64,000 nucleotides of DNA, from assembly GCA_035533755.1 (NCBI GenBank), contig DATLTC010000009.1, forward strand, positions 124,001 to 188,000, in the 5' to 3' direction. Shown piece after piece: positions 45,727 through 61,603 of this stretch; position 1 is the first letter of the stretch, and the number at the start of each line of letters is the position of its first letter. Position numbers and translations under genes: made by a program. A model generated the notes under the pieces. That model made no database searches and was not told the DNA's origin. It saw only the letters and a list, made by a program, of their open reading frames with translations. This DNA is from Gemmatimonadaceae bacterium. Lineage in GTDB: Bacteria > Gemmatimonadota > Gemmatimonadetes > Gemmatimonadales > Gemmatimonadaceae.

Positions 45727-46290
45727 CTAGTCCGAAAGCGTCGTCGCCTCGTGGACGATTCGTGCCGCGAGCGCCGTGAAGTGGGCGTCCGCATCGGGGC
45801 GCTCCGCGCGCGCCACTTGGTCGAACGCCGCGAGCATGGCGTCCGCCGCAGGACGCGGGATGAGCTCGTCGGCCATCGGGAAGAGCATCTCGTCTTCCTT
45901 AACGATGTGGTCGCGGAGCAGCGCGACGTAGCCCTTGGCATTCGACACGATGTGGCGGCGTGCCTGCGGATCGCCGCCGTCCAGGCCCCGGGCCGCGTCG
46001 CGCAAGGCACGGTTGTAGGCGCGCCCCTGCTCATGCTCGTCGAGCATCATGGCGATGGCGCCCCCGTGCGGCGGCGCGCCATGTGCGATCATCGCCTCGA
46101 ACAGCACGCCTTCTTCCTTGCCGTGATGGCAGCCATCGGCAAAGCCCGACACGAAATCGGAGACGTCCACGAAGAATCCCGGCCGCACGTTGCCGCCACG
46201 CGCGAGTACGGCCGCCGCCGCTTCGAGCGCGTCGAGCACCTGCTCGATGACCCGGTGCTCGGCCATCAGCACGTCGGTCGGTGTGGTCAC
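45727..46290 (-). CDS. hemerythrin (HHE)-domain protein
   Basis: 187 residues from GTG 46290, overlapping the dehydrogenase stop. A four-helix bundle with the di-iron ligand pattern: MAEHRVIEQ, GCHHGKEEGVLFEAM, DEHEQGRAY and LRDHIVKEDEMLFP. Such proteins bind O2 or sense oxygen, NO or iron. As the last gene of an operon for oxygen-sensitive radical Fe-S enzymes it may scavenge or sense oxygen; this is inference. The 167-nt gap after it, before GH53, shows no clear signal. Confidence 0.85.
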   Translation of the reverse strand: MTTPTDVLMAEHRVIEQVLDALEAAAAVLARGGNVRPGFFVDVSDFVSGFADGCHHGKEEGVLFEAMIAHGAPPHGGAIAMMLDEHEQGRAYNRALRDAARGLDGGDPQARRHIVSNAKGYVALLRDHIVKEDEMLFPMADELIPRPAADAMLAAFDQVARAERPDADAHFTALAARIVHEATTLSD

Positions 46291-47363
46291 GGCACGAGGA
46301 CCGCTCGCCTGGTCAGCCGCCCATGGTGCGCCGCCTCGAACACCGCGTTGATCTCCGAGAGCGGATGGCGCTCCACGTACGGCTTCACGGCCAGGCGGCC
46401 GGCGGCGATCCACTGCAGCAGTTCGGGATAGATCTCCGGGTCGGCGCCCCAGTTGCCGTGCGCTTCGGCGTCGTAGGCCATGAGGTTCGACAGGCAGATC
46501 TCGATCTTGTCCATCGTGTAGCCCACCACGCCCAACGATGCGCCGAAGCCGACCAGCGCGTACGCCGTCTCCTGACCGGCTTTGGTGCCGGAGGTCTCGA
46601 AGATCTTCCACAGGTGCGGCGGCGCACCGAGCGATTCCGCCAGCGCCCGCGCTTGCTTGCGGACCTCCTTGAGCGGCATGCCGCGCACGTCGATCACGCC
46701 GCGCGCGCCCGCCGCCGTGGCCTGCTCGAGCTTGCGCGCGTCGATGTCGATGGCGATCACCGTGGCGCCCGCGGCGCGGGCCACCTGCACGGCGTGGACG
46801 CCGATGCCGCCCACGCCGACGACGATCGCCAACTCCCCGGGCAGGAGGCCGGAGCGCTTCACGGCCTGGAAGGGCGTCGAGAGGGCATCGGCCACGACCG
46901 ACAATTCCCAGAGTTCGTGCTCGACCAGGGCCGCAGCCGGCACGGGGCAGAGATACCGCGCCGGCACGACGACGTGCGACGCGAAGCCCCCATGACGGTC
47001 GTTGCCCGGCATCACCTGCCGCCGGCAGATGGCGCGGCGGCCGGCACGGCACAGGTCACACTCCCCGCACGGCAGCACGGCGGGGACGACCACCGCCTGG
47101 CCGACGAGGGCAGGGTCGGCGCCGGCGCCGACCGCGCGCACGATGCCGCTGATCTCGTGCCCGAGGACCAACGGCAGGGGCCCGCGCGTCTTCACGCCGC
47201 CGTAGAGGTACGAGAGATCGGTGTGGCACACGCCGCAACCCGCCACCTCGATCAGCGCTTCACCGGCCGCGGGCTCGATCCACGGCAGGTCCACCCGGTC
47301 GAGGGCGGCGCCCGGCGTGGTCATGACCCAGGCGCTGTACGTGGTTCCGATCGTCGTCGTCAT
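46287..47363 (-). CDS. had: 6-hydroxycyclohex-1-ene-1-carbonyl-CoA dehydrogenase
   Basis: 358 residues from ATG 47363. A zinc-dependent medium-chain dehydrogenase: catalytic zinc motif GCGVCHTD and GHE near residue 70, structural zinc cysteines in CGECDLCRAGRRAIC, and NAD loop VGVGGIGVHAV. The stretch VMPGNDRHGGFASHVVVP is characteristic of the Had (dearomat_had, BamQ) family of benzoyl-CoA degradation. It oxidises 6-hydroxycyclohexenoyl-CoA to the 6-oxo compound, substrate of the hydrolase encoded at 55862. Overlaps both neighbours by 4 nt. Confidence 0.9.
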   Translation of the reverse strand: MTTTIGTTYSAWVMTTPGAALDRVDLPWIEPAAGEALIEVAGCGVCHTDLSYLYGGVKTRGPLPLVLGHEISGIVRAVGAGADPALVGQAVVVPAVLPCGECDLCRAGRRAICRRQVMPGNDRHGGFASHVVVPARYLCPVPAAALVEHELWELSVVADALSTPFQAVKRSGLLPGELAIVVGVGGIGVHAVQVARAAGATVIAIDIDARKLEQATAAGARGVIDVRGMPLKEVRKQARALAESLGAPPHLWKIFETSGTKAGQETAYALVGFGASLGVVGYTMDKIEICLSNLMAYDAEAHGNWGADPEIYPELLQWIAAGRLAVKPYVERHPLSEINAVFEAAHHGRLTRRAVLVP

Positions 47364-49177
47364 TGGCGTTCTCCGAAGAGCAAGCTTCCACATTCGTAGC
47401 ATCGGTCGAGCGTCTTGGCCCGCCCGCCAAAGCACGGCCGCGCGTCGCCGGCCACCCGCAGCACCTTGCGCAGGAAGCGGCAATCGCACTCGGCGGTTGG
47501 TTCGTACACGGCCTGGAGGTAGCCCTCGGCGTCGGCCAGCACGTTGCGCACCCGCACCTTGAGCGACGGCGTCAACTCCTGATCCTCGATCGTCAGCTCC
47601 TTGCTGATGACCGCCACCGCCCGGATGTGCTCGTACTTGACGGCATGCGTGCGGTTGAACTCGGCGATCGTGTCGCGCAGCGACGCCGCCACCACGCGGT
47701 CGGCGGTCGCGCGATCGGCGCCGAATTCCTCGCCGATGCGGAAGAAGTCGGGGAAGATCAGGGCACAGAGGAAGTCGCGTCCCCCGCCGGCGACGAGGAC
47801 GTGCCGGATGTACGGATTCATGCCGGCGAGCCGGTTCTCGATCTCCGTAGGCACGACCTTCTCCGCGTTCAGCAGCTTGAACACCCGGTCCTTGCGCGCG
47901 ATCAGCTTCAACGCGGACCCCATCAACTCGCCGAGGTCGCCGGTATGGAACCAGCCGTCTCCGGGAAGCGCCTTGGTGGTGGCCTCGTCGTCGCGGTAGT
48001 AACCCCGCATCACGTTGGGGCCCCGGATGAGGATCTCCCCGTCGTCGGCGATCTTCACCGTCACGCCGGGCAGGGGATAGCCCACCTTGCCCGGCGCCGA
48101 CCGCGATTCGTTAAGATCGGTGAGCGTGCAGCAGGGCGCCGTCTCGGTCAGCCCCCAGCCTTCGGCCACGGCGATGTGGCGGGCCGCGAAGAACTCCGAG
48201 AGGTTGGCGGGGAGCGGCGCGGCCGCGGTGAACACGAATCGCAACTCGGGATGGAAGATTCGCTCCTCGTCCTCGGGATGCGACTGGATGTGGGCCACGA
48301 GCTGCTGGTACACCTTGGGCACGCTGAAATAGATCGTCGGCCGGATCTCCATCCAATTCCGGAGCAGCACATCGAAGTCCCGACCGTACGAGTCGTCGAT
48401 CGTGAGCGCGGCGCCATTGTACAACGCACTGTACTTCTCGAAGATGCCGCCGAAGCTGTGATGCCAGGGCAGGTACGACAGGAACCGATCCTCGGGGCCG
48501 ATGTCCCAGATCTCGGCCAGGGCGCGCCGTTGGGAGAGGATGTTGTCGTGGGTCAGGAGCACGCCCTTCAGCGCGCCGCTCGTGCCCGACGTGTACATCA
48601 TCAGGCACGGCGCGCCGGGATCGAGCGACGCGCCGCGCTCCAGGAATGCGTGCCGGGCCGCGTTGCGCGGCGTCGAGCGGAACGGCGCGAGGATGTCACG
48701 GAACTCGGCAAAGGTGACCACCGCTCGCGCGCTGGCGGGCAGGCGCAGGCGCGCCCGCCAGCCGGCATCGGGCAACACCACCGCCGCCGGCGCCGCGTGG
48801 GCAAGCAGATCGTTGGTCTGGTCCGGCGAGTAGCCGGCAAAGAGCGGCGTGTACACGGCCCCCAGGCTCATCGTCGCCAGCTCGGTGACGAGCATCTCAC
48901 CACGATTGGGCGAGATGACGACGACGCGGTCGCCGGGGGCGACCCCCGCGTGTTCCAGATACCGACCGAATGCGACGACGTCGTCGGCGAGCTGGCGCCA
49001 GGTCACGGTCCGGATGGCCCCGAGGCTGCGTTCGCGATAGACGGCACGCTCACCATGCCTGGCCGCATTCCGCAACACGAACGACGCGATCGTCTCGCTG
49101 GTACCGGTGGGCTCGAGCAGCGACCGGATGCGGTCGCCCTCCCGTACCGCGGCGCGCGCATGCGTACCCTGTCTCAT
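47360..49177 (-). CDS. AMP-forming acyl-CoA ligase with C-terminal cysteine-rich tail
   Basis: 605 residues from ATG 49177. ANL-superfamily motifs: MMYTSGTSGALKGVLLTH (P-loop), EGWGLTETAP and GWFHTGDLGEL, then KLLNAEKVVPTEIE and a near-terminal lysine in ELTPSLKVRV. It resembles long-chain (FadD15-like) ligases more than benzoate-CoA ligase. The last about 45 residues are unusual for the family: CDC, then a single C, then CYEC, a possible zinc-binding tail. It may activate the entry acid of the pathway or the 2-hydroxy acid made by the fused reductase; unproven. Confidence 0.87.
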   Translation of the reverse strand: MRQGTHARAAVREGDRIRSLLEPTGTSETIASFVLRNAARHGERAVYRERSLGAIRTVTWRQLADDVVAFGRYLEHAGVAPGDRVVVISPNRGEMLVTELATMSLGAVYTPLFAGYSPDQTNDLLAHAAPAAVVLPDAGWRARLRLPASARAVVTFAEFRDILAPFRSTPRNAARHAFLERGASLDPGAPCLMMYTSGTSGALKGVLLTHDNILSQRRALAEIWDIGPEDRFLSYLPWHHSFGGIFEKYSALYNGAALTIDDSYGRDFDVLLRNWMEIRPTIYFSVPKVYQQLVAHIQSHPEDEERIFHPELRFVFTAAAPLPANLSEFFAARHIAVAEGWGLTETAPCCTLTDLNESRSAPGKVGYPLPGVTVKIADDGEILIRGPNVMRGYYRDDEATTKALPGDGWFHTGDLGELMGSALKLIARKDRVFKLLNAEKVVPTEIENRLAGMNPYIRHVLVAGGGRDFLCALIFPDFFRIGEEFGADRATADRVVAASLRDTIAEFNRTHAVKYEHIRAVAVISKELTIEDQELTPSLKVRVRNVLADAEGYLQAVYEPTAECDCRFLRKVLRVAGDARPCFGGRAKTLDRCYECGSLLFGERQ

Positions 49178-49971
49178 ACCGCCACCTCCGGCCCCACGGA
49201 CACGGCGCCGTCACGGGCGGCAAGCGCGGCGCCGAACGCCCCCATCTCCTGCGGGTGCGGCGGCACCAGCACCTCGGCGTGCATCTCCTCGCCCAGCAGC
49301 CGCGCCACGGTGGGGTGGTACGCCACGACGCCGCCCGTGGCCACCACGCGACCGTGCAGCACGTCCATCGCCACCACGCGCTTCACCAGCGAGCGATACG
49401 CCGCCATCGCGAGATCGGCCGGCCGATGCCCGGCCCGGATGAGCGTGAGGAGCTCGGTGCCGGCGAACACGGTGCAGAAGCTGGAAAGCTCCAGAGCCTC
49501 GGTGGACCGCGACGCCAGGTCGTCCAGACCGGCCACGTCGATGCCCAGCCGGAGCGCGATCTCGTCGAGGAAGCTGCCCGTGCCGGCGGCACACTTCCGG
49601 TTCATCCGGTGCGCCAGGCGCTGCCCGTTCGCGTCGAGGCGAATCACCTTGGCGTCCTGGCCGCCGATGTCGATCACGAGCATCGGTCCCTTGACGTAGA
49701 ACGCGGCGCCCCGGCCGTGGCAGTCGAGCTCGGTCCGCGACCCATCGGCGAACGAGACGGTCTGGCGACCGAACCCCGTGGCCCAGATCGCGTGGACGTC
49801 GCTCTGTCCGCCGGGAGCGCGGGCGAGGGCGAGGGCCAACGCCTGCTCGGCGGCGCCGGCGAGGTCGGCGCCCGAGCGCACCACGGCCCGCGCCAGGACG
49901 CGCGCCTCGTCGTCGATGACGACGGCCTTGGTGTTCCACGAGCCGCTGTCCACGCCGACGAAGCGTTTCAT
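49174..49971 (-). CDS. BcrA/BcrD/HgdC-type ATPase, Fe-S activator subunit (second set)
   Basis: 265 residues from ATG 49971. ASKHA-fold ATPase: VGVDSGSWNTKAVV phosphate loop, VIDIGGQDAKVI, and the two bridging-cluster cysteines in NRKCAAGTGSFLDE and SSFCTVFAGTE, then ATGGVVAYHP. Such proteins dimerise around a 4Fe-4S cluster and drive ATP-dependent low-potential electron transfer to a dehydratase or reductase component. All key residues look intact. It overlaps the intact dehydratase-like subunit gene upstream and the ligase downstream. Confidence 0.92.
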   Translation of the reverse strand: MKRFVGVDSGSWNTKAVVIDDEARVLARAVVRSGADLAGAAEQALALALARAPGGQSDVHAIWATGFGRQTVSFADGSRTELDCHGRGAAFYVKGPMLVIDIGGQDAKVIRLDANGQRLAHRMNRKCAAGTGSFLDEIALRLGIDVAGLDDLASRSTEALELSSFCTVFAGTELLTLIRAGHRPADLAMAAYRSLVKRVVAMDVLHGRVVATGGVVAYHPTVARLLGEEMHAEVLVPPHPQEMGAFGAALAARDGAVSVGPEVAV

Positions 49972-51203
49972 GCGCGCGCTCCCGCCGGCCGCGCGTCGGC
50001 CAGTTGCTCCACGAAGCCCTCGACGTTCGTGCGCACCTGCTCGTCGGAGAAACAGCGGAGGTCGTTCACGTCACCGTCGAGCGTGAGGGTCGGGATGCCG
50101 AGTCGCTCGGCGATGCGCCGCGGCATGCCGTAGCGCGTGTTCGAGTTGTTCGGACAGGTACGACAGTCGTGAAAGACGATGCCGTCCACGTCGTACAGCG
50201 AGAGCATGCGCTCGATGTACGCCTCCTTGGCGTCCTCGGAGCGCACGATGAACAGCTCCAGCGACGCGCGCGCCATGGAGCGCATGGGATCGGCAGGGTC
50301 CAGCGCCGAGAAGATCCAACTGTTGCAGTACGTGGACGCGACCACCGCGGTGCGGAACTCCGCGAACAGCGACGACAGCGCGCGCAGGCGTCCCCACACC
50401 GGCATCCCTTCCCAGTACAGGCGGAACGCCTCGCGCGGCACGGCCGCCTGCGCCGCCCGCCCCAGTTCGTCGAGCTCGGCGAGCAGCAGCCGGTAGTAGT
50501 CACACGCCTCGGGCGCGCCGCGCAGGACGACGGCCGGCCCCATGTGGATGGTCCCGTCGAAGAAGGTCAGTGGGGCGGGGTGCCGCGTGGCGGTGCGAAG
50601 GCAGGCTTCCCAGAGGTCGGAACATTCCCGCGACACGCGCACGGCGTCGGCCAGCCGCGTCGCGTCGAGGCGGGATCCCGCCACCGCTTCCAGCGTCGGC
50701 ACGAGCCGCTCGAGTTGCGCCGCGACGCCGTCCACGTCGGTGTCGTACACCTGCTCGATGGCGCGCGGCGACCGCACGCCGATCACGGGCACGTTCCACG
50801 TTCGCCCGTACCACTCGAACCAATCGCGCACGTCGCGGCACTGATTGGTGTTGAAGACGAGCACGTCGGCGCGCGGCGTGCCGCTCAGCCCGAATGCGGC
50901 CAGGGGCGTCTCGCCGGCGAGGTACGCGCCCACGTCGCTGGTGAGGTAGGAGCAGACGTCCTGCGAGTAGCCCTGCGCATGGGCGAGCGGCATGTAGCGG
51001 TTGGCGCTGCGGGCGGCGCCGAGCATGGCCGCGTGGTTCTCCGGAAAGAACACCTGGAAACCGAGGGCCCGGAGCAGTTCCGCCGGCCCCACGCTCGAGC
51101 ACCAGGCCACGGGCGCGGTCTTCCGCTCGGCCGCCTCGCCCACGGCGCGGAAGTAGTGGCCCATCGTGTCCTTCAGCGCCGCCGCGCTCCGGAGGCCGGT
51201 CAT
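49968..51203 (-). CDS. benzoyl-CoA reductase / 2-hydroxyacyl-CoA dehydratase family subunit (second set, cysteines intact)
   Basis: 411 residues from ATG 51203; earlier open frame overlaps the ATPase gene and is not conserved. Family Fe-S ligands are present: Cys84 (SQDVCSYLTSDVG), Cys122 (NTNQCRDVRDWFEWYG) and about Cys347 (HDCRTCPNN), plus Cys35 in WCSSVGPAELL. The subunit should hold the active-site 4Fe-4S cluster. It is a homologue of BcrB/BcrC and HgdA/HgdB; which reaction it serves is not evident. It lies between two ATPase genes and is paired with the fusion protein encoded at 51999-54251. Confidence 0.9.
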   Translation of the reverse strand: MTGLRSAAALKDTMGHYFRAVGEAAERKTAPVAWCSSVGPAELLRALGFQVFFPENHAAMLGAARSANRYMPLAHAQGYSQDVCSYLTSDVGAYLAGETPLAAFGLSGTPRADVLVFNTNQCRDVRDWFEWYGRTWNVPVIGVRSPRAIEQVYDTDVDGVAAQLERLVPTLEAVAGSRLDATRLADAVRVSRECSDLWEACLRTATRHPAPLTFFDGTIHMGPAVVLRGAPEACDYYRLLLAELDELGRAAQAAVPREAFRLYWEGMPVWGRLRALSSLFAEFRTAVVASTYCNSWIFSALDPADPMRSMARASLELFIVRSEDAKEAYIERMLSLYDVDGIVFHDCRTCPNNSNTRYGMPRRIAERLGIPTLTLDGDVNDLRCFSDEQVRTNVEGFVEQLADARPAGARA

Positions 51204-51979
51204 TGCAGCGCCTTGAGCGCGGCGCCGAGCGCCCCGGTGTAGATCGCGTCGGGGACCGCCCGCGCCTCGATTCCCGAGAGCTCCTGTATGGCGTGCAGCA
51301 CGCCGGGGAAGTATTCGACGACGCCGCCGCAGACGACCAGCGGATGCGTGAACCCTCCGATCTCGACGATCCGTTCGGCCACCGAGTGCATGCAGCCGAG
51401 CGCGATCTCCTCCCGGGTGGCGCCCTCGCGCAGCCGCTCGAGCACCTCGCTGGCGGAGAACACCGAGCAGTAGCTGCTCACCGGCGCCGGCGCCGAAGCC
51501 GCTGCGGCAAGCTCCTGGAGTCCCGAGGGCGCGATGTCGAGGTGGCGAGCGGCGAACATCAGGAAGCTGCCGATGCCGACGGCGCAACGGCGCACGCCGT
51601 GCGCGTCGAGACGCCGGCCATCGCCGGCTACGTGCATGACGTGCGGATCGCGCCCGCCGATATCGACCAGCGTCATCGCGTAGGGGGCATGGTGGTACGC
51701 GCCGAGGGCGTGGCAGCACGCCTCAGTGGCCGTCGTCGTGGCATCGCGCACGCAGTTCATCGCGAACCCCGTGGCGCCAATCCCCGCCAGGTCCGCCTGT
51801 TGGAGCTGCGCGTCGTCGAGCGCCGCCGTGAGGACCTCGTAGCTGCACGCCTGGAAATAGCCCCGGGTGGGAGCCACGGCGCGCCCGAGGATCCGGCCGT
51901 CGGCACCGGCGACCACGGCTTTCACGCATTCCGTCCCGACGTCCACGCCGGCGGCGGCCCTGGCTCCTTGTTCCAGCAT
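51200..51979 (-). CDS. divergent BcrA/BcrD-type ATPase subunit (second set)
   Basis: 259 residues from ATG 51979. It keeps the ASKHA fold signs: AGVDVGTECVKAVV, the two cluster cysteines (RRCAVGIGSFL and SSYCSVFSASE) and VVCGGVVEYFPG. It departs from consensus where others have GGQDxK (here GGRDPHV) and CAAGTG (here CAVGIG). It probably pairs with the ATPase encoded at 49174 as a heterodimer, as BcrA and BcrD do. Separated by 19 nt from the fusion gene upstream and overlapping the 411-residue subunit gene by 4 nt. Confidence 0.85.
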   Translation of the reverse strand: MLEQGARAAAGVDVGTECVKAVVAGADGRILGRAVAPTRGYFQACSYEVLTAALDDAQLQQADLAGIGATGFAMNCVRDATTTATEACCHALGAYHHAPYAMTLVDIGGRDPHVMHVAGDGRRLDAHGVRRCAVGIGSFLMFAARHLDIAPSGLQELAAAASAPAPVSSYCSVFSASEVLERLREGATREEIALGCMHSVAERIVEIGGFTHPLVVCGGVVEYFPGVLHAIQELSGIEARAVPDAIYTGALGAALKALQ

Positions 51980-51998: not shown

Positions 51999-54251
51999 CT
52001 AGTGGGCGGCCAACCCTTCGACGTGCTGCTCGAGGAAAGCGGACAGCTGACCCTGCAGCCGCTCGGTGGAGAACAGCCGCAGGTCGTGGGAATCGGCTTC
52101 GAGTACGAACGACGGCACCGCGGTCGCGCGCTCCGCTCGCACCGCGAGGCCGAACCGGACATGGCTCGCCTCCGGCGTCGTGCGGCAATCGTGGTAGACC
52201 GCCGCGTCCACGCCATACTCGTCGAACTTGGATGCGAGGTATGCCGTCTTGAACTCTTCCGACCGATTGCCGAACACCCCGGTGTACGCGCGCGCCATGC
52301 TGGCAATCGGATCGTCGCGGTCGAGGCCCGGCAGCACGAACTCCCCGCAGAACGTGGAGGCCACGATCGCCACGCCGGCGTCGGCGAACAGCCGCGACAG
52401 GGGCCGCAGCGCGCACCAGATCGGCGGGCCGTCCCAGTAGAAGCGATGCGTCTCGTTGGGGACGGCACCGATGCCCCGAGCCACCCGATCCTCCAACTCG
52501 TCCTTCAACTCCCGGTAGTACGACACCGCCGCCGGCGTGCCGCGCAGCAGCACCATCGGCGCGAGATGGACCACCGCGTCGAAGAAGGTCATCGGCGCGG
52601 GCACGGCGCGGGCGAGCGCGAGGATGTCGTCCCAGAGGGTGCTGGCGTCGCCGCTGTACCCGACCGTCTCGCTCAGACGATCCATCTCGAGCGTGCGGCC
52701 GGTGGATCGCTCGAGCCGCGACACGAGCCGGAGCAGTTGGTCCACCCCGGCGTCCACGTCGATCGGCTCCAGTTCGTGCAGCGCCGGCGGGGGGTGGAGC
52801 CCGTCCACCGGCACATCGTAGTGCGACCCATAGAACTCGAACCAGCGGAGCAGTTGATGGCCCGTGTTGGTGCTGTACACCACGACGTCCGGGCGTGGGA
52901 CCCCGGAGATGCCGTGCGCCGCGACGAGCGGGCTCGTGCCCTCGAGCAGCGCGCCGACGTCGGCCCGCATCGCCGAACTGGCGAACTGCGACAGGCCGTG
53001 GGCCGTGGCGCGCGCGATCGCGTGCCCGCCCTGGCGGGTGGCCGCGATGAGCGCCGCATGATTCTCCGGGAAATACGGCGCGATGCCCAATGCGCGCACG
53101 ATCTCCACCGGGCCCAGTGCCGAGCACGCCGCCACGAGACGCGACGGATCGGCCGAGGCCGCCGCGAGATCCCGATAGTAGGCGCGCATGAGCTCTTTGA
53201 GGCGACGGGTGCTCTCGAGCGGCGGCCCGCTGGGCGTCATCCCGCCGTCCGCGCCGCGCAGCATCGGCGCGCCCGCCATCGGCGGATGGTCCAGCCCGAG
53301 GCGGACGGCGATGGCCTGCTTGTTCAGGAATTTCTGGCGTTCGCGGGAATGGATGAAATCGACGATGGCCCGGTTGTGCGGCGCGGTCAGCCCGAGACGC
53401 GCGGCCTCGTCCGCCACCGCGCCGTTCAGGGCGTCGACTTCCGTGCGCTTGCCGCGCGAGAGATCCTGCCACATGGACGGGCGGTTCTTGCCCAGCGCCT
53501 TGAGCGAGCCGATGATCGGCCGGAACGGATCCTCCTCGTCCACGATCGGAATGCCTCGCGCCCGCATCACGGCGATGATCTCGCCGCAGAGATCGCGCAT
53601 GAACGCCATCAGGTGCTCGTCGGCCAGCATCTCGCGGCACGTGAGGCCGGTGAGCGCCGAGGTGGGATTCACGACCGCATTGTGCAGCAGCTTCTGCCAG
53701 ATCGCATGGTCCACGTGGGGCACGACCTCCGTGGCCATGCCGGCGGTGCGGAACACTTCGGCGATGGCCTCGATCTGCGCCCGGTCGGCACCGCCGAACG
53801 GAGCGATCTGGATCGGTTTGATGCCCGCCCGATAGTTGAGCCGCCGCGGCCCCGCATGCTGGATGCTGTGATATGTGATGCCGCAGAGCACACGCTCGCC
53901 GCCCACGAGCCCGGCGATCTTCTCGGCGTTACCGATCCCGTTCTGGAGCGAGAGGAACAGCGTCCGGGGGCCGCACGCCGGCAACACCGACCGGACCGCG
54001 TCCTCGGTCTCGTACGTCTTCACGGCCACGAACACCAGATCGAACGGCGCCAGGCCGTCCACGGTCGAGACCACGAACACCGGCACGCACACCTCTTCCT
54101 CGCCCATCCGGCTGACGAGCAATCCGGCGTCGTTCAACAACGCCGCCCGCGCCGTGTTCACCTCGAGCAGGGCCACGTCCTCGCCGGCGCGCGTCAGGTT
54201 GGCGCCCACGAGTCCGCCAAGGGCCCCGGCTCCGACGATCAGGGTTCGCAT
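51999..54251 (-). CDS. fusion: ketopantoate-reductase-family dehydrogenase + BcrB/HgdB-like subunit lacking cluster cysteines
   Basis: 750 residues from ATG 54251 in one unbroken frame. Residues 1-310 form a complete ketopantoate-reductase-family enzyme: NAD(P) loop VGAGALGG, LQNGIGN, catalytic Lys187 in WQKLLHNAVVNPTSAL and the GKRTEVDALNGAV region. Residues about 350-750 align along their length with the 411-residue subunit (AYYRDLAAA, CSALGPVEIVRALG, FPENHAAL, WFEFYG, YHDCRT). Two of three cluster cysteines are lost: SQFASSAM replaces the DVCSY cysteine and NTGHQ the NQC cysteine; only Cys689 of HDC remains. The dehydrogenase family includes D-2-hydroxyacid dehydrogenases, which fits a link to 2-hydroxyacyl-CoA chemistry. 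Function not established. Confidence 0.88.
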   Translation of the reverse strand: MRTLIVGAGALGGLVGANLTRAGEDVALLEVNTARAALLNDAGLLVSRMGEEEVCVPVFVVSTVDGLAPFDLVFVAVKTYETEDAVRSVLPACGPRTLFLSLQNGIGNAEKIAGLVGGERVLCGITYHSIQHAGPRRLNYRAGIKPIQIAPFGGADRAQIEAIAEVFRTAGMATEVVPHVDHAIWQKLLHNAVVNPTSALTGLTCREMLADEHLMAFMRDLCGEIIAVMRARGIPIVDEEDPFRPIIGSLKALGKNRPSMWQDLSRGKRTEVDALNGAVADEAARLGLTAPHNRAIVDFIHSRERQKFLNKQAIAVRLGLDHPPMAGAPMLRGADGGMTPSGPPLESTRRLKELMRAYYRDLAAASADPSRLVAACSALGPVEIVRALGIAPYFPENHAALIAATRQGGHAIARATAHGLSQFASSAMRADVGALLEGTSPLVAAHGISGVPRPDVVVYSTNTGHQLLRWFEFYGSHYDVPVDGLHPPPALHELEPIDVDAGVDQLLRLVSRLERSTGRTLEMDRLSETVGYSGDASTLWDDILALARAVPAPMTFFDAVVHLAPMVLLRGTPAAVSYYRELKDELEDRVARGIGAVPNETHRFYWDGPPIWCALRPLSRLFADAGVAIVASTFCGEFVLPGLDRDDPIASMARAYTGVFGNRSEEFKTAYLASKFDEYGVDAAVYHDCRTTPEASHVRFGLAVRAERATAVPSFVLEADSHDLRLFSTERLQGQLSAFLEQHVEGLAAH

Positions 54252-54285: not shown

Positions 54286-55071
54286 TCAGCGGTTGTGCCA
54301 TACGGGCCTCCGCTTCTCAAAGAATGACGCGATCCCCTCACCGACATCGTCCAGCGCCATCAGCTCGTTCAGGAACACGTGCTCGGCTTCGAGCCGCCCC
54401 GCCTCGAACGGCCGCCCCTGCAACTCCCGCACGAGCCGCACGTTCAGGCGCATCACGGCCGGGCTCGCCCGCCGGAGCTCCCCGAGTACCGACGCCAGCT
54501 TGTCGGCCAACTCCGCGGGTGGCACGACATGTGACACCAGCCCCATCGCCGCCATCTCGGCGGCCGTGTACGCGTGCCCCGTGCTCGTGATCTCGATGGC
54601 GCGAGCCGGCCCCACGCGCGCCGACAGCCACGACACCCCCACGGGCGCGAAGAATCCCAGTCGGATCTCGGGCTGGCCGAACGTGGCCTTCGTGCTCGCA
54701 ATGAGGATGTCGGCCATGAGCGCGAGTTCGAACCCGGCACCCAGAGCGGCGCCGTCCACGGCCATCACGATCGGCAGTTCACAGGCGCCGAACGCCGCGA
54801 ACAGGCGGCTGAACGCCGCGATCATCACCGGCGCGTTCTCCGGCCGGTGCTCGCCCACGTCGGCGCCCGCCGAGAACGCGGTGCCGGTGGCCGTTACGGA
54901 GAGCGCGACCACGGCGCGGTCCGCCTGCGCGCGCTCCACGGCCGTGGCGAGATCTGCCATCACGGCCGCGGTCAGAATATTGAGGGGCGGGGCGTCGAGC
55001 GTGACGTGCGCGATGGCGTCGCGCACCTCGTATTGCACCGTCGTCTGGATCTGCGCCGTGGAGGCCGCCAT
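54286..55071 (-). CDS. dch: crotonase-family hydratase, probable cyclohexa-1,5-diene-1-carbonyl-CoA hydratase
   Basis: 261 residues from ATG 55071. The oxyanion-hole motifs FSAGADVGEH and VDGAALGAGFELALMADI, with FGQPEIRLGFFAPVGVSWL, match the dienoyl-CoA hydratase (Dch/BamR) style rather than short-chain enoyl-CoA hydratase. It would hydrate the product of benzoyl-CoA reductase to 6-hydroxycyclohex-1-ene-1-carbonyl-CoA, the substrate of Had. It sits in the operon between the SDR and the fusion gene. The assignment rests on motif likeness and context; an ordinary enoyl-CoA hydratase is the alternative. Confidence 0.75.
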   Translation of the reverse strand: MAASTAQIQTTVQYEVRDAIAHVTLDAPPLNILTAAVMADLATAVERAQADRAVVALSVTATGTAFSAGADVGEHRPENAPVMIAAFSRLFAAFGACELPIVMAVDGAALGAGFELALMADILIASTKATFGQPEIRLGFFAPVGVSWLSARVGPARAIEITSTGHAYTAAEMAAMGLVSHVVPPAELADKLASVLGELRRASPAVMRLNVRLVRELQGRPFEAGRLEAEHVFLNELMALDDVGEGIASFFEKRRPVWHNR

Positions 55072-55097: not shown

Positions 55098-55847
55098 CTA
55101 GATGTACTGGCCTCCATCGACCTTCATCACCGTGCCCGTTATGTGCCGGGCGCGCGCCGAGCAGAGGAACGCGACCGCCTGCGCCACGTCCTCCGGCTCC
55201 GCCACCCGGCCCAGCGCCGATTCCCGTTTGGCGTTCTCCACGACCTCCGCCGGCAGGCTCGCGGTCATCTCGGTGCGCACCAGCCCCGGCGCCACGCAGT
55301 TCGCCGTCACACCGGCGCTGCCCAGCTCGCGGGCCAGCGTCTTGGTGAGGGCGATGACCCCCGCCTTGGACGCGGCGTAGTTGGCCTGGCCGAACTTGCC
55401 GCGCAGCCCGTTGATGCTCGCCATCGTCACGATGCGCCCATGCTTCTGTGCGCGAAGCGCCGGCGCGATCGCGCGGCAGTAGGCAAAGCACCCCTTCAGA
55501 TTGACGCCGAGCACTTCATCCCACTGCGCCTCGGTCATCTTCCAGACCACGGCATCCCGGGCCACGCCGGCGTTGGCAACGAGGATGTCGACACGCCCGA
55601 ACTCCTGCAGCGCGGCCGCCACACACCGTTCCGCGGCGCCGACGTCCGAGACGTCGGCTTCGAGGGCGATCGCGCGCCCGCCGCCGGCGCGGATGGCATC
55701 CGCCACCGCCCGCGCCTCCTCGAATGCGCCGGCGTCCACGAGGGCCACGTGGCACCCCTCGCCGGCCAACGCCTGCGCCACCGCGGCCCCGATGCCGCGC
55801 CCGCCGCCGGTGATGACCGCGGTCTGTCCCGCCAGTTCCAGGTCCAT
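55098..55847 (-). CDS. short-chain dehydrogenase/reductase (FabG-like)
   Basis: 249 residues from ATG 55847. Classical SDR: TGGGRGIG cofactor loop, NAGV, the catalytic serine in TMASINGLRG, the YAASKAG tyrosine-lysine pair and a C-terminal VDGGQYI. An aspartate-like residue after the second strand (LVDAG) favours NAD(H). In this operon it could be the 3-hydroxypimeloyl-CoA dehydrogenase acting between the ring hydrolase and the thiolase; other 3-hydroxyacyl substrates are possible. Confidence 0.85.
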   Translation of the reverse strand: MDLELAGQTAVITGGGRGIGAAVAQALAGEGCHVALVDAGAFEEARAVADAIRAGGGRAIALEADVSDVGAAERCVAAALQEFGRVDILVANAGVARDAVVWKMTEAQWDEVLGVNLKGCFAYCRAIAPALRAQKHGRIVTMASINGLRGKFGQANYAASKAGVIALTKTLARELGSAGVTANCVAPGLVRTEMTASLPAEVVENAKRESALGRVAEPEDVAQAVAFLCSARARHITGTVMKVDGGQYI

Positions 55848-55861
55848 CGCGCTCCCGGTGG

Positions 55862-56845
55862 TCAGGCGCCCTGGGCGCCGTTCAGCTTCGCGCCGCACTG
55901 CCCGCAGAATTCGAACGCGGCGGGAATTCCCTTGGCGCCGCATTGGGCACAGGTGTGCTCGTACGGGCCCCACAGGAACTCGCTGCTCCCCCCGTCGGCC
56001 GCCCGGCTGCGGATGCCGCGGTAGTCGATCTTCCGCTTCTCGACGAAGGCCTGCATGCCCTCGTAGGGCTCGAGCGTGGTGAAGTGCGTGGACAGCCAGT
56101 CGCGCGCGTGGCCGATGGTGGCAAACCACGCCGCCTCCTTCCAGTAGTTCACCTGCTGCTTGGTGTAGCGCGTGCATTCGGGGAAGGTGTTCAGCAGCTT
56201 CTGCGCCAACTCGTTCACCGTGTCGTCCAGCTTCGCCCGCGGCACCACCCGGTTCACGAGGCCCCACTCCAGGGCCTGCGCGGCCGGGATGCGGGGGTTG
56301 AGAAAGAGCATCTCCCGCGCGCGACGATCGCCCACGTGGATGGACAACCACTGCGTGGCGCCACCGGCGGCGACGCTCCCCACGCTGGTGCCGACCTGGC
56401 CCAGGTAGCAGTCGTCGGCCATCACGGCGAGGTCGCAGGCGAGCTGCGACTCGTTGCCGCCGCCCACCGCGATCCCATTGATCCGGGCGATCGTCACCTT
56501 GCCATTGCGGAAGATCGACTCGATGTAGCGGCTGAACAGGCCCATGTACTTGAAGTAGTCGTGCGGCCGCTTGGTGTAGACCGACGCATACTCCTTCACG
56601 TCGCCGCCGGTGCAGAACGCCTTCTCCCCGGCGCCGGTGTACACGATCACCCCCACCTGGTCGTCCTGCGATGCGTCGTCGAACGCGCGGATCAACTCCC
56701 GCAGCGTGTCGGTGGTGTACGCGTTGTACGCCTCGGGGCGGTTGATCGTGATCCGGGCAACGAAGTCCTTCTTGTCGTAGAGAATGTCCTTGAAGTCCAG
56801 GCTGCGAGGCGACTTCGAGGTGAAATAGTCGATCAGCGAGGTCAT
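55862..56845 (-). CDS. oah: 6-oxocyclohex-1-ene-1-carbonyl-CoA hydrolase (ring-opening), with C-terminal zinc ribbon
   Basis: 327 residues from ATG 56845 (MTSLIDYFTSKSPRSLDFKD); upstream codons in frame overlap the thiolase end. This crotonase-family hydrolase hydrates and cleaves the alicyclic ring to 3-hydroxypimeloyl-CoA and is the marker enzyme (BamA/Oah) for anaerobic aromatic degradation. Diagnostic stretches are TGGDVKEYASVYTKRPHDYF, GIAVGGGNESQLACDLAVM and VGTSVGSVAAGGATQWL. The last about 35 residues add two CxxC pairs (CAQCGAKG and CGQCGAK), a zinc ribbon. Confidence 0.95.
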   Translation of the reverse strand: MTSLIDYFTSKSPRSLDFKDILYDKKDFVARITINRPEAYNAYTTDTLRELIRAFDDASQDDQVGVIVYTGAGEKAFCTGGDVKEYASVYTKRPHDYFKYMGLFSRYIESIFRNGKVTIARINGIAVGGGNESQLACDLAVMADDCYLGQVGTSVGSVAAGGATQWLSIHVGDRRAREMLFLNPRIPAAQALEWGLVNRVVPRAKLDDTVNELAQKLLNTFPECTRYTKQQVNYWKEAAWFATIGHARDWLSTHFTTLEPYEGMQAFVEKRKIDYRGIRSRAADGGSSEFLWGPYEHTCAQCGAKGIPAAFEFCGQCGAKLNGAQGA

Positions 56846-56877
56846 GGGTTGGCTCTGGTTGATGTCATGCCGGCCGC

Positions 56878-58092
56878 TCAGCGGATATCCACTTTCACGA
56901 CGACCGCCGCCGCCGAATCGCCGGCGGCGCATCCGGTGAACAGGCCGTATCCTCCACCCTGCGTCACCAGGTCCTCCACGAGTTCGATGATCGCGCGCAG
57001 CCCGGTCGGGCCCTGGGGATGCCCCCAGACCAGCGAGGATCCGAAACGGTTCATCTTCTCGGGGTCGAGCTGCAGCGAGCGCGCCAGCAGGACGTCGTTC
57101 ACCGCGAACGGATTGTGGGTCGTGGTGCTCGCGAGTTGGCCGGCGGCGATCCCCGCCCGGGCCAGCGCCGTCTGCGCGGCCGGCACGATGGCCATCGGCA
57201 TGAACCCCGGTTTCACGCGGGCCTGGCCGAACGAGAGCAGCCGCACCTCCACGTGTTCGTCGCGCGACAGGGCGCGCGCGCGATCCCGGTTCCCGGTGAG
57301 CACCATCCCGGCGCTACCGTCGGCCGGGTGCGTCTGGGTGCCGAACGTGACGCTGCCGCCCTCGGTGACCGGCCGCAATGCGGCCAGCCCGGCCGCCGTG
57401 GTCGGGAATACGCCTTCGTCGCCGGTGACCGTGGCCACGACCTTCTTCCCGCGCTTCACCTCGACGGGCCGCACCATGAACCGGCCGAGAAACGCGCCGT
57501 CGTCGGCCAGCGCGCGGGCGTACTGCGCGTAGCGCAACAGCGTCATCTCTTCCTGCGCCTGGCGCGTGATCGCGCTCTCGCGGGCGACGTTCTCGGCCGT
57601 CTGCAGCATCGAGTTCTTGGCGTACGGATCGTGGCCGAAGCTGTCGAGCACCAGATCCTCGTGCTCGCCGGTGCCGCCGGCGCCGCCGGGATTGGGGTAA
57701 TACACGTGCGGCCCGTTGCTCGTCCGGTCCACGGCTGCGGCCAGGTACACGTTGGCGCTCCCTGAGGTCAGCTCCTGCGCGCCCTCCACCACGCACCGCG
57801 CCGACGTGGCGCACGCCTGATTGATGGTCGGACCACTGATGTGGCCGAGCCCGGCGAGACCCGCGAACCACGGCGCGCCGTAGAAGGAGCCCTTGCTGGC
57901 CACGGTCGTGCCGAGGCTCATGCCGTCGATGTCGCTCGCCGCGATGCCGCGCTCGTCGAGCGCCCGCCGCGCCAACTCGGCAGCGAGCGGGATCGGCGCC
58001 AGGGTGGCGAACGAACCCTGCCAGGCACAGAACGGCGACGACCAGTAGGCGCCGTAGGGGATGTATACCGTCTCGAACTGCACGTTGCTCAT
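56878..58092 (-). CDS. thiolase-family acyl-CoA acetyltransferase
   Basis: 404 residues from ATG 58092. The nucleophilic cysteine is in NQACATSARC near residue 92, HNPFAVND replaces the usual NEAFA region, GHPQGPTG is the second catalytic loop and CAAGDSAAA the last. It resembles the thiolases of anaerobic benzoate clusters (BamN-type) and SCP2-like thiolases. In context it would cleave 3-oxopimeloyl-CoA to glutaryl-CoA and acetyl-CoA. Overlaps tetR by 4 nt. Confidence 0.87.
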   Translation of the reverse strand: MSNVQFETVYIPYGAYWSSPFCAWQGSFATLAPIPLAAELARRALDERGIAASDIDGMSLGTTVASKGSFYGAPWFAGLAGLGHISGPTINQACATSARCVVEGAQELTSGSANVYLAAAVDRTSNGPHVYYPNPGGAGGTGEHEDLVLDSFGHDPYAKNSMLQTAENVARESAITRQAQEEMTLLRYAQYARALADDGAFLGRFMVRPVEVKRGKKVVATVTGDEGVFPTTAAGLAALRPVTEGGSVTFGTQTHPADGSAGMVLTGNRDRARALSRDEHVEVRLLSFGQARVKPGFMPMAIVPAAQTALARAGIAAGQLASTTTHNPFAVNDVLLARSLQLDPEKMNRFGSSLVWGHPQGPTGLRAIIELVEDLVTQGGGYGLFTGCAAGDSAAAVVVKVDIR

Positions 58093-58724
58093 CGTTTGCG
58101 CACTCCATTCAGGATCAGGTCGATCATCTCCTCACCGATCTCCTCCACCGTCCCGTACCGGGCCGGGTCGTACCACATGAAGATCCAGTTCAGCATGCCG
58201 AACGCGAACAATGCCGCGTGCCGGCTGCGGCGCGATGTGGCGTCGCCGGCCTCTCCCATCAACGCGCTGACCACGGCGGTGAAGAGATGGTAGTACCGCC
58301 GGCGCAGCGACTCCGTGGTCTCGTAGCGCTCCCCCTGCAGCGACGCGAGTTCGTACGTGCACACCTTGAGCTCGTTCGGATGACTGGTGAAGAACGCGAG
58401 ATGCCCGATCACGAGCCGTCGTAACCGCTCTTCCGGCGTGCCGGGCTGCGACGCCCGCTCTTCCTGCGCCGCGAGCAGCGCAGCGAACGTCCGATACTGG
58501 ATCTGGTAGAGCAGTTCCTCTTTGGAGTCGAAATAGTGGTAGAGGCCGGCGAGGCTCACACCCAGCGCGCGGCTCACATCGCGCATGGACGTCGCCTCGA
58601 ATCCCTTGTCGGCGATCAGCGCCGCTGCCGTTTCGAGCAGCGTTTCCAACTTCTGCTGCGTCGCGGCCCGGGGCCCTCGACGCCGAGGCGCGGTGGACGT
58701 GTCGTCGCTGCTGTTCGGATTCAT
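58089..58724 (-). CDS. TetR-family transcriptional regulator
   Basis: 211 residues from ATG 58724. The N-terminal helix-turn-helix (about 20-70) reads LLETAAALIADKGFEATSMRDVSRALGVSLAGLYHYFDSK in style, with a FadR/PaaR-like C-terminal ligand domain (RLVIGHLAFFTSHPNEL). Many such regulators bind acyl-CoA or aryl-CoA. It lies in the middle of the operon with 4-nt overlaps on both sides, so it is made along with the pathway it probably controls. No operator was identified in the window. Confidence 0.88.
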   Translation of the reverse strand: MNPNSSDDTSTAPRRRGPRAATQQKLETLLETAAALIADKGFEATSMRDVSRALGVSLAGLYHYFDSKEELLYQIQYRTFAALLAAQEERASQPGTPEERLRRLVIGHLAFFTSHPNELKVCTYELASLQGERYETTESLRRRYYHLFTAVVSALMGEAGDATSRRSRHAALFAFGMLNWIFMWYDPARYGTVEEIGEEMIDLILNGVRKR

Positions 58725-61603
58725 CGGCTCCGTGCTCCAAGGGCTGGCCCGGCGTCGGATGCCGGCGCGCGCGCCGCGGCCGGTGACGTCGCGCGCTGCT
58801 TGAGTCCATGCAGGATCTTCTCGGCCGTGATCGGCAGCTCGGTCACGCGCACGCCGCAGGCGTCGTAGATGGCGTTGGCGATGGCGCCGAGCATGGGGAG
58901 CAACGAGCCCTCGCCGATTTCCTTGGCGCCGAACGGGCCGCGCGGTTCGTAGCTCTCCACGGCCACCGAACGCATCTGGGGGGCGTCGCAGATCGTGGGG
59001 ATCAGGTAGTCGTGCAGATTGGGATTCACGAGACGCCCGCCCGCGCCGACGACCGTATCCTCCATCAACGTTTCGCCGAGCCCCATGATGATGGAGCCCT
59101 CCACCTGCCCGTGGAACGTGAGGGGATTGATGACCGTGCCCGCATCGCTGAAGTCCGTGACCCGGTCAACGCTCACAAACCCGGTCTCGAGATCGACCGT
59201 GACCTCGGCGATCGCCGTCGAGAAGCTGTATGCGGGCGACGTGCCCACCGCGCTCCCCTTGAACCCGCCCCCGAGATCCTTGGGCGGTTGGTAGGAGCCG
59301 GTGCCGACGATCGGGCCGTGCTTGGCAAACGCCAGCCGGGCGGCCGCCGCCCAATCCATGCCCACGGTGGGGAACTGCGCCACGAATACGCGGCCGCTGC
59401 GCGCCACCAGGCTGCCCACGTCGCACGCCAGGGCCCGCGCCGCCGCCTCGAGCACCTGCCGCTTCACCACGAGCGCCGCCTCGCGCACCGCGTTGCCCCC
59501 CATCAGCGTCACGCGGCTGGAATACGAGCCCAGATCCAGCGGGCTCAGCGTCGAATCGCACTCCGCCATCCATACCCACTCGAACGGCACGCCCAACTCC
59601 TCGGCCGCGATCTGCACCAGCACCGTGTCGGACCCCTGGCCGATCTCCGCCGCCGCGATGTGCAGCGACACGGCCGTGCCGTCCTCGTGCACGCGGATCA
59701 TGGCGTTCGAGTGCGGGAAGTCGGAGCGGTAGATCGGATATCCGGCGCCGGACACGAAGCCGCCGCTGCCCACGCCGATCCCTTTGCCCGGCGGCAGATG
59801 GCCGCGCTTGGCCCGCCAGTCGGTGGCGTCGCGCGCCTGCTCGAGCGTGCGCGTGAATTCGCACGACGACACGTCGAGCGCGTTCACCGTCCGCGTGTTG
59901 GGCTGCATCGCATTCTTCAGCCGGATGTCGATCGGATCGATGCCCAACTCCTCGGCGATCATGTCGAGCAGCGACTCGAACGCGAACCGCGGCTGCGGCA
60001 CCCCATGTCCGCGAAACGCGCCGCTCGCCGGCAGATTGGTGTAGACGCGCACCCCGTCGTACTTGTAGTTCGGCATCCGGTACAGCGTGGGGAGCATCGA
60101 TCCGGCGTAGTACGCCGTGATCACCCCGAACGACGTGTACGCGCCGCCATCCAGCACCACGCGCTGCTGCACCGCAGTGATCGTCCCGTCGCGCGTCACG
60201 CCGATCTTGAGATCGATGGTCTGCTTGTGCCGCCCCCGGAAGTGCCGGAACATCTCCTCGCGCGAGTACTCCATGAGCACCGGTCGCCCGGTCTTGCGCG
60301 ACAGGATCGCGGCGCAGAAGTCCAGCGGCGTCGCCTCGGCCTTGACGCCGAACCCGCCACCCACCGCCGGACGGATCACCCGGATGCTGCCCATCGGAAT
60401 TCCGAGCGTGCGCGACAGCGACCGGTGCAGATAGTGCGGCGTCTGAGTGGACGACCAGAGCGTGAGGCGGTCGCCGTGGGCCTCCCACTGGGCGAGCGCC
60501 GCGTGCGGCTCCAGCGGCGCCTGGTACGTGCGATTGCCCACGAACCGCTGCTCGCGCACGAGGTCGGCCTGGGCGAACCCCTGCTCGACGTCGCCGAAAT
60601 GCCACTCGACCCGCGTATTCACGTTGTTGGCGTAGCGCGGATGCTCGGGATGCACCAGCGGCGCGCCGGGCGCCATCGCCGCCTCCGCGTCGAACACCGC
60701 CGGGAGCTCCTGGTATTCCACTTCGATCAGCGCCACCGCGCGCTCCGCCGTCGCCTCGTCCACCGCGGCCACCGCCGCCACCTCGTCGCCGATGTAGCGC
60801 ACTCGCTCGCGGGCGAAGATCTGCTCGTCCTCGCGCGCCGGGCTCACGCCGTACCACGTGGCGGGAACGTCGTCCGCCGTGATCACGGCCAGCACGCCGG
60901 GCAGCGCCCGCGCCTTGCTGACGTCGATCCGCGTGACGATCCCGTGCGCGATCGGACTGCCAAGGATCTTTCCGAAGATGGTGCCCGGCGGGCGATGGTC
61001 CGCCGTGTACCTGGCGCGCCCCGTGACTTTGTCCGGCCCGTCGTAGCGGGTCACCCCATGTCCGACGATCGCGTGATCGCGCTTCTGATCGCGCTCGCCC
61101 TCGTCGTGCGGATGCGCATCGAGCGGCACGCCGTCGAACTCCTGCCACGACCGCACGGCGCGGATCATCCGCGGATACGTGGCGCAGCGGCAGAGATTCC
61201 CGCTCAGCGCGTCCTTGACGTCGTCCTCGCTCGGGGCGGGGTTCCGGTCGATGAGCGCCTTGGCCGACATCAGCGCGCCCGCCGTGCAGAAGCCGCACTG
61301 GAGCGCGCCATGCTTGACGAACGCCTTCTGCAGGGGATGCAGATCGCCGCCCGTCGCCAGACCCTCCACGGTCGCGATTGCCTTGCCGTCCGCCTCGACG
61401 GCGAGCTGCAGACACGCGTTCACCGGCTCGCCGTCCACGTGCACCGTGCACGCGCCGCAGTCGCCCGTGCCGCAGCCGCGCTTGGTGCCGGTGAGGCCGA
61501 GTTCATCGCGCAGCACGGCGAGCAGCGTCGTCCCCGGCGCCACCGCCACGGTGCGCGGCTCGCCGTTCACGTCGAGGCGCACCAGGTGCCCCCCCGTCGT
61601 CAT
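58721..61603 (-). CDS. xanthine-dehydrogenase-family enzyme, fused 2Fe-2S and molybdenum subunits
   Basis: 960 residues from ATG 61603. Residues 1-165 are the small-subunit type with two 2Fe-2S clusters: Cys44, 49, 52, 64, then Cys103, 106, 138, 140. Residues about 175-960 are the Mo-cytosine/pterin subunit: AVGGGFGVKAEA, GAFRGHGVPQPRFAFE, AAEIGQGSDTVL and the catalytic glutamate in GAKEIGEGS. In 4-hydroxybenzoyl-CoA reductase these are separate subunits. The place beside bcrAD suggests dehydroxylation or hydroxylation of an aromatic or alicyclic acid or CoA ester, but the partner FAD subunit lacks the 4Fe-4S loop of that reductase. Substrate unknown. Confidence 0.88.
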   Translation of the reverse strand: MTTGGHLVRLDVNGEPRTVAVAPGTTLLAVLRDELGLTGTKRGCGTGDCGACTVHVDGEPVNACLQLAVEADGKAIATVEGLATGGDLHPLQKAFVKHGALQCGFCTAGALMSAKALIDRNPAPSEDDVKDALSGNLCRCATYPRMIRAVRSWQEFDGVPLDAHPHDEGERDQKRDHAIVGHGVTRYDGPDKVTGRARYTADHRPPGTIFGKILGSPIAHGIVTRIDVSKARALPGVLAVITADDVPATWYGVSPAREDEQIFARERVRYIGDEVAAVAAVDEATAERAVALIEVEYQELPAVFDAEAAMAPGAPLVHPEHPRYANNVNTRVEWHFGDVEQGFAQADLVREQRFVGNRTYQAPLEPHAALAQWEAHGDRLTLWSSTQTPHYLHRSLSRTLGIPMGSIRVIRPAVGGGFGVKAEATPLDFCAAILSRKTGRPVLMEYSREEMFRHFRGRHKQTIDLKIGVTRDGTITAVQQRVVLDGGAYTSFGVITAYYAGSMLPTLYRMPNYKYDGVRVYTNLPASGAFRGHGVPQPRFAFESLLDMIAEELGIDPIDIRLKNAMQPNTRTVNALDVSSCEFTRTLEQARDATDWRAKRGHLPPGKGIGVGSGGFVSGAGYPIYRSDFPHSNAMIRVHEDGTAVSLHIAAAEIGQGSDTVLVQIAAEELGVPFEWVWMAECDSTLSPLDLGSYSSRVTLMGGNAVREAALVVKRQVLEAAARALACDVGSLVARSGRVFVAQFPTVGMDWAAAARLAFAKHGPIVGTGSYQPPKDLGGGFKGSAVGTSPAYSFSTAIAEVTVDLETGFVSVDRVTDFSDAGTVINPLTFHGQVEGSIIMGLGETLMEDTVVGAGGRLVNPNLHDYLIPTICDAPQMRSVAVESYEPRGPFGAKEIGEGSLLPMLGAIANAIYDACGVRVTELPITAEKILHGLKQRATSPAAARAPASDAGPALGARSR

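Follow-up and report, generated by a model that had tools for sequence, protein, structure and literature searches.

A dehydrogenase fused to a cluster-free dehydratase-family domain looks like part of an undescribed enzyme system beside benzoyl-CoA degradation genes in Gemmatimonadaceae

The closest described systems draw on the same few protein families. HadBC with HadI, LdhA and HadA, and FldABC/I/H for aryl-lactates, bring together a dehydrogenase, a CoA donor, an activase, and an HGD-D dehydratase. Class I benzoyl-CoA reductases (BCRs), i.e., BcrCBAD, BzdNOPQ, and MbdONPQ, comprise two non-identical HGD-D chains and two activases, one of which is degenerate, while DCCP with DCCP-R consists of one HGD-D chain and one activase. 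BzdO ligates its catalytic [4Fe-4S] cluster through Cys95, Cys128, and Cys380 and binds the thioester through Tyr97 and Tyr298, with Glu65 as an acid/base catalyst (PMC11971306). An [8Fe-9S] double cubane is found in BzdN (PMC11971306). The ketopantoate reductase (KPR) family, PanE/ApbA, takes in D-mandelate dehydrogenases according to a passage of PMC12350541 that cites Wada 2008.

KPR, HGD-D, and activase family members meet in one operon on the minus strand of the window, the 64,000-nucleotide stretch of DNA that we analyzed, which comes from a 3.2-Mb, 98% complete assembly whose relatives are Gemmatimonadota. Its features, in window coordinates, are as follows.

46287..47489, minus strand: Had, 6-hydroxycyclohex-1-ene-1-carbonyl-CoA dehydrogenase (TIGR03201, 445 bits; cutoff 339)
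47360..49177, minus strand: LIG, AMP-forming acyl-CoA ligase (Pfam AMP-binding; best solved relative feruloyl-CoA synthetase 8wev, 3.8e-37)
49174..49971, minus strand: ATP2, canonical activase ATPase (TIGR00241, 205 bits; cutoff 125; motifs intact)
49968..51203, minus strand: HGD2, intact HGD-D subunit, 411 aa (residues, HMMs, fold)
51200..51979, minus strand: ATP1, degenerate BcrAD/activase-family ATPase adjoining FUS (motifs, tree)
51999..54251, minus strand: FUS, KPR-family dehydrogenase plus HGD-D domain, 750 aa (Pfam, homologues, AlphaFold model, Foldseek)
51999..53216, minus strand: FUS-C, HGD-D domain of FUS without [4Fe-4S] ligands, aa 346-750 (ligand alignment, tree)
53316..54251, minus strand: KPR domain of FUS, aa 1-312 (TIGR00745, 249.8 bits; cutoff 141.35)
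54286..55071, minus strand: ECH1, crotonase of the dienoyl-CoA/enoyl-CoA hydratase type (TIGR03189, 130.6, below cutoff)
55098..55856, minus strand: SDR dehydrogenase, FabG/3-hydroxyacyl type
55862..56932, minus strand: ECH2, crotonase between Oah, BadI, and MenB (TIGR03200, 189.8; TIGR03210, 185.1; all below cutoff)
56878..58092, minus strand: thiolase
58089..58724, minus strand: TetR regulator (Pfam)
58721..61603, minus strand: 4-hydroxybenzoyl-CoA reductase-like enzyme, [2Fe-2S] and Mo subunits fused, 960 aa (TIGR03194, 922, cutoff 995; TIGR03193, 173, cutoff 258)
61600..62475, minus strand: FAD subunit of the 4-hydroxybenzoyl-CoA reductase-like enzyme (position and sequence)
62493..63356, minus strand: bcrD (gene order; followed by bcrA, bcrB, and bcrC)
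63356-64627, minus strand: bcrA (gene order; runs past the window end)

Compared with the HadBC system, the parts are of the same kinds, but the dehydrogenase belongs to the KPR family and shares its chain with an HGD-D paralogue devoid of the cluster, both HGD-D chains resemble alpha subunits, there are two non-identical activases, and the whole lies inside a benzoyl-CoA operon. Two non-identical HGD-D chains and two activases, one degenerate, are also what class I BCRs have; however, whereas BzdN bears its double cubane, the presumed partner of HGD2, FUS-C, is without any cluster. The HGD2-ATP2 pair resembles DCCP with DCCP-R in its apparent one-chain, one-activase design, at a distant 17-19% identity.

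On the minus strand, the genes run bcrC, bcrB, bcrA, bcrD, the 4-hydroxybenzoyl-CoA reductase-like subunits, TetR, thiolase, ECH2, SDR, ECH1, FUS, ATP1, HGD2, ATP2, LIG, and Had, an order identical in six relatives as far as their contigs reach. The bcrB and bcrC products, encoded past the window end, score above cutoff (BcrB with TIGR02260, 678 bits; BcrC with TIGR02263, 472 bits), and the operon has a bcrCBAD set that is complete and separate. A divergent gene at 67073-69295 encodes a 3-hydroxyacyl-CoA dehydrogenase/crotonase fusion. Nearly all sufficiently long contigs with FUS also have the 4-hydroxybenzoyl-CoA reductase-like genes, which were not found in the stretches around those BCR operons of the class that lack FUS (L097-L104, L107); the fusion of their [2Fe-2S] and Mo subunits is kept in relatives. 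Separately, bcrB (64624-65895) is nearly identical to that of a congener (G002), with a dS of 0.12 vs. ~0.6 for neighboring genes, which suggests recent recombination or transfer. Genes at 70147-76120 (L004) for an aldehyde dehydrogenase, a DapA-like protein, a proline-racemase-like protein, and an FAD oxidoreductase look, by eye, like hydroxyproline catabolism.

FUS starts with an ATG at 54251, 34 bases past the stop of ECH1, and reads through 750 codons with no internal stop. An earlier note on this DNA had described one unbroken gene of that length, as we find, and had left the strand unstated. The antisense frame is open too, which is common in DNA of 70% G+C, but homology is confined to the minus strand, and a plus-strand reading of 51999-54251 is meaningless. 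Pfam finds ApbA (1.7e-33), ApbA_C (7.5e-33), and HGD-D (2.3e-47), in this order. The AlphaFold model (mean pLDDT 84) has two folded domains joined by a disordered linker, and the best Foldseek matches are HadB (TMt 0.93) for one and ketopantoate reductases/D-mandelate dehydrogenases for the other. Among relatives, the linker differs in length, yet the frame is always kept. Measured against the nearest relative, the KPR half has a dN/dS of 0.044 and the HGD-D half one of 0.051. Since the same fusion is present in more than 20 independent genomes and dN/dS is low, at about 0.05, an assembly error, a frameshift at the junction, or a decaying pseudogene is excluded, and we found nothing in favor of any of them. 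FUS is a genuine conserved fusion. Nor did two genes become joined here by loss of a stop codon, which the earlier note had named as a way to be wrong, for the relatives are also fused.

How widespread is this architecture? Fused ApbA/HGD-D proteins that are 55-93% identical and lie in operons matching this one occur in Gemmatimonadota and also in metagenome-assembled genomes labeled Acidobacteria, Krumholzibacteriota, and Eisenbacteria. A whole-genome search found the fusion in six further genomes (63-92% identity), and 16 GTDB contigs or loci carry the fusion at 57-73% identity, a few of them from these same genomes, with titles naming Gemmatimonadota, Acidobacteria, Krumholzibacteriota, Eisenbacteria, and one unnamed bacterium. 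Within the class, HGD2 orthologues (71-100%) occur in 16 of 394 genomes, all 16 of which have FUS; 15 also have a class I BcrB-like chain, and a separate search showed it in the sixteenth. Conversely, HGD2 is present in nearly every FUS genome: none was found in one draft (G474), and in another (G067) it is cut by a contig end. Unfused FUS-C genes in G450 and G763 are only apparent, their contigs stopping inside the gene. In a plasmid collection, HGD-D proteins were only 20-28% identical. One gemmatimonadotal locus (L045:3618-7577) has the FUS module beside an MbdO-type reductase in place of the BcrB type. In keeping with the earlier view that no enzyme of this architecture had been described, no precedent was found in the literature searched, which takes in few subscription journals: no paper in it joins "benzoyl-CoA reductase" with "ketopantoate reductase," and a search for 2-hydroxyacyl-CoA dehydratase with KPR names gave nothing relevant.

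The KPR domain is a member of the ketopantoate reductase family by score, dinucleotide loop, and catalytic Lys and Glu. The motifs previously read from the sequence lie where expected: GAGALGG at aa 7-13, Lys187 at K187, and TEVDALNGAV at aa 270-279. N104, K187, N191, N195, S259, and E271 are retained and conserved in 20 FUS-type KPRs, with catalytic K187 and E271 in 20 of 20. Fold, NAD(P) loop, and these catalytic residues are thus shared with the PanE/ApbA and D-mandelate dehydrogenase family, and the fold resembles 3wfi (Foldseek). By analogy with that family, the domain may be an (R)-2-hydroxyacid dehydrogenase.

HGD2 keeps the residues of a catalytic subunit. Its equivalents of the BzdO residues (C84, C122, C350, Y86, Y292, and E55) are invariant in 42 of 42 sequences, the third cluster Cys being C350, the HadB equivalent, rather than C347. 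Compared with HadB, MbdO, and BzdO, for which the sequences were fragments from printed PDB alignments, HGD2 has the HadB residue at W34, S37, E55, C84, Y86, C122, V125, Y292, and C350, with one deviating residue among the 42 sequences (V125 is found in 41, one having Ile; W34 and S37 in all). In contrast, W34 and/or V125 are replaced in BcrB, MbdO, and BzdO: BCRs have Phe or His at 125, and BcrB and MbdO have Tyr at 34. S37 separates HGD2 only from BcrB and MbdO, since that column is poorly aligned for BzdO, in which Ser is present by pairwise alignment. HadB reportedly has a Ser37/Glu55 pair (work by Knauer in 2012), and both residues are present in all 42 HGD2 sequences. The HGD2 model (pLDDT 91) is also closest in fold to HadB (3o3m_A, TM 0.90/0.93). 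Profile scores rank HadB (NF052455, 192.6 bits; cutoff 750) above BcrB (TIGR02260, 126.5; cutoff 486.6) and BzdO (TIGR03191, 68.6; cutoff 448.6), and because every curated cutoff is missed, HGD2 is no named enzyme and at most a HadB relative. From its residues, we infer that it is a HadB-like (R)-2-hydroxyacyl-CoA dehydratase.

The HGD-D half of FUS is a different matter. The earlier note had taken it for a full-length BcrB/HgdB-like domain, which holds for the fold (Foldseek), but a working subunit is not supported. Across 24 orthologues, in HGD2 numbering, C122 and Y86 are lost in 24 of 24, C84 in 22 of 23, and C350 in 22 of 24, while E55 is retained. Since the cluster cysteines and the thioester-binding Tyr are gone in essentially all of them, FUS-C is most likely not a functional catalytic HGD-D subunit, and it falls below the BCR cutoffs (TIGR02260, 106.1 vs. 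486.6; TIGR03191, 58.6 vs. 448.6). Annotation pipelines would label it a benzoyl-CoA reductase/dehydratase subunit, which it cannot be alone. It is still under strong purifying selection. In the window, FUS-C and HGD2 are 43% identical. FUS-C sequences form one clade, joined to HGD2 at 100/99 (support for the HGD2 clade is weaker, 83/62). The source genome encodes only four HGD-D proteins (BcrB, BcrC, HGD2, and FUS), making FUS the natural partner of HGD2. Given paralogy, co-occurrence, and the fact that no further HGD-D chain is to spare in that genome, FUS-C is most likely a non-catalytic partner that would heterodimerize with HGD2 and thereby tether the dehydrogenase.

The two BcrAD-type ATPases at the locus are non-identical as well, each with both cluster cysteines. 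In ATP1, these are kept in 24 of 24 sequences while R69, Q105, and T131 are changed, as in BcrD vs. BcrA, and in the tree ATP1 forms one clade, with a long branch, on the side of ATP2. FUS-C and ATP1 together have the look of an HGD2/ATP2 pair that was duplicated and then decayed and, because FUS-C and ATP1 are constantly adjacent, the two were probably duplicated together.

Simpler loci suggest what preceded the fusion. Many genomes of Acidobacteriota, Krumholzibacteriota, and Eisenbacteria have HGD2 and ATP2 without FUS. In 14 of 21 such loci, a KPR-family gene lies within ~7 kb, 13 on the same strand and 8 of those within 170 bases; no KPR was found nearby in L120-L123, L162, L164, and L167. 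If, as a rough model, three KPR genes are assumed in every 4 Mb, the chance of such proximity is ~1e-22, a figure that is indicative only, the loci being related. Apparent KPR-HGD2 fusions in L161 and L163 are out-of-frame extensions, the KPR being a separate upstream frame. Other neighbors of HGD2-ATP2 are an ADP-forming acyl-CoA synthetase (in many loci), a sodium symporter, class III CoA-transferases, and LarA-family racemases, which on gene content reads as the parts list of a pathway from 2-hydroxyacids to enoyl-CoAs. One locus (L170) has bcrCBAD, ligase, HGD2, KPR, ATP2, had, crotonases, SDR, and thiolase in one row, by its genes an unfused counterpart of the operon in the window. The ancestral state would then be HGD2 and ATP2, probably as homodimers, with a separate KPR gene, persisting in many Acidobacteriota; judging by these neighborhoods, HGD2 would work there without a beta subunit. 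Since FUS-type and separate KPRs fall on different branches, recruitment of a KPR probably happened more than once and, the separate KPRs of distant genomes being of the other branch, the fusion is more than the loss of a stop codon. FUS KPR keeps a complete ketopantoate-type pocket (N191, N195), unlike most stand-alone KPRs near HGD2, and it need not act on the same acid as they do.

We lean towards the view that FUS, HGD2, ATP1, and ATP2 belong to a single ATP-dependent system of the (R)-2-hydroxyacyl-CoA dehydratase type, equipped with a dehydrogenase of its own. The KPR domain would use NAD(P)H to reduce a 2-oxo acid to its (R)-2-hydroxy counterpart; the operon's CoA ligase (elsewhere the ADP-forming synthetase or a CoA-transferase) would make the CoA ester; the ATP1/ATP2 pair, with a bridging [4Fe-4S] whose ligands are present, would pass a low-potential electron to the single [4Fe-4S] of HGD2; and HGD2 would remove water, giving a 2-enoyl-CoA. 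FUS-C would be a dead copy of HGD2 that has kept the fold and probably the dimer face. The earlier note had suggested such a route with the fused HGD-D domain as the enzyme. That role of the domain is not supported, whereas the route agrees with the system as a whole, i.e., KPR genes near HGD2, HadB-type residues, and LarA, CoA-transferase, and synthetase neighbors. Because the 4-hydroxybenzoyl-CoA reductase-like genes travel with FUS and the ligase is related to feruloyl-CoA synthetase, our guess is that the substrate is an aryl-lactate feeding the 4-hydroxybenzoyl-CoA/benzoyl-CoA route: (R)-4-hydroxyphenyllactate might give p-coumaroyl-CoA, then, via crotonase, SDR, and thiolase, 4-hydroxybenzoyl-CoA, and then benzoyl-CoA for BcrCBAD.

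What counts against this reading is the difference in pocket between FUS KPR and most stand-alone KPRs, the HGD2 loci with no KPR found nearby, and the finding that FUS and ATP1 adjoin had/dch, not HGD2, in Krumholzibacteriota, a placement that could point to ring metabolism. HGD2/FUS-C with ATP1/ATP2 might be a further ATP-dependent enzyme that reduces the ring, or a reductive dehydroxylase, for an aryl-CoA that BcrCBAD refuses, with KPR acting on a ring or ring-opened product. The heterodimeric activase pattern resembles BcrA/BcrD, FUS-ATP1 has Had and a Dch-like crotonase close by wherever the contig reaches far enough, and, in the class searched, FUS is found in genomes with class I BCR. 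We nevertheless consider this unlikely, as the first shell of HGD2 is that of HadB and unlike all three BCR types, a full bcrCBAD set is already there, and HGD2-ATP2 occurs beside a LarA racemase and a CoA-transferase with no BCR genes in the stretch examined; the first two points also lessen the likelihood of the ring-reduction product that had earlier been offered as an alternative substrate. The system could also run in reverse, an enoyl-CoA such as glutaconyl-CoA from the lower benzoyl-CoA pathway being hydrated to a 2-hydroxyacyl-CoA, CoA recovered, and the acid oxidized by KPR to a 2-oxo acid. The lower pathway of aromatic operons does yield C5-CoAs, as is established, and the ADP-forming synthetase adjoining HGD2-ATP2 in many loci would make ATP, but the ligase in the window's operon is AMP-forming and known enzymes of the family serve dehydration, which makes this direction improbable. 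That the KPR domain is just the cell's ketopantoate reductase, fused by accident, seems very improbable despite its complete ketopantoate-type active site and a source genome with PanB and no second KPR found. PanB is absent from 4 of 10 FUS genomes and present in 6 (all at least 95% complete), which disfavors pantoate synthesis as the sole role; moreover, linkage to ATP1/HGD2 is fixed, and KPR genes of the other branch recur beside HGD2 elsewhere.

If the dehydratase reading is right, a testable reaction can be given to an unassigned, widely conserved module that uncultured phyla of soil and sediment carry beside the central pathway of anaerobic aromatic degradation. More tentatively, and with some doubt, the module might represent a new branch of BCR/HAD radical enzymes, in which a symmetric one-chain dehydratase and its activase were duplicated into an asymmetric complex (a catalytic half, a dead half bearing a dehydrogenase, and an asymmetric activase pair) that channels aryl-2-oxo acids to enoyl-CoA into anaerobic benzoyl-CoA degradation, convergent with the BcrA/BcrD and BcrB/BcrC asymmetry. 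It would bear on how symmetric activase/dehydratase pairs turned into asymmetric class I BCR complexes and, by suggesting a low-potential radical enzyme with one cluster-bearing half, on the purpose of the second cluster in HADs and BCRs.

Two further observations concern FUS-free loci. In five from Acidobacteriota (L160, L162, L164, L165, and L166), HGD2-ATP2 is accompanied by a LarA-family 2-hydroxyacid racemase and a class III CoA-transferase, in what looks like an undescribed 2-hydroxyacid pathway. In another (L123:11689-18553), HGD2-ATP2 lies beside genes that read, by eye, like BamB/BamC/BamD/BamE of class II benzoyl-CoA reductase.
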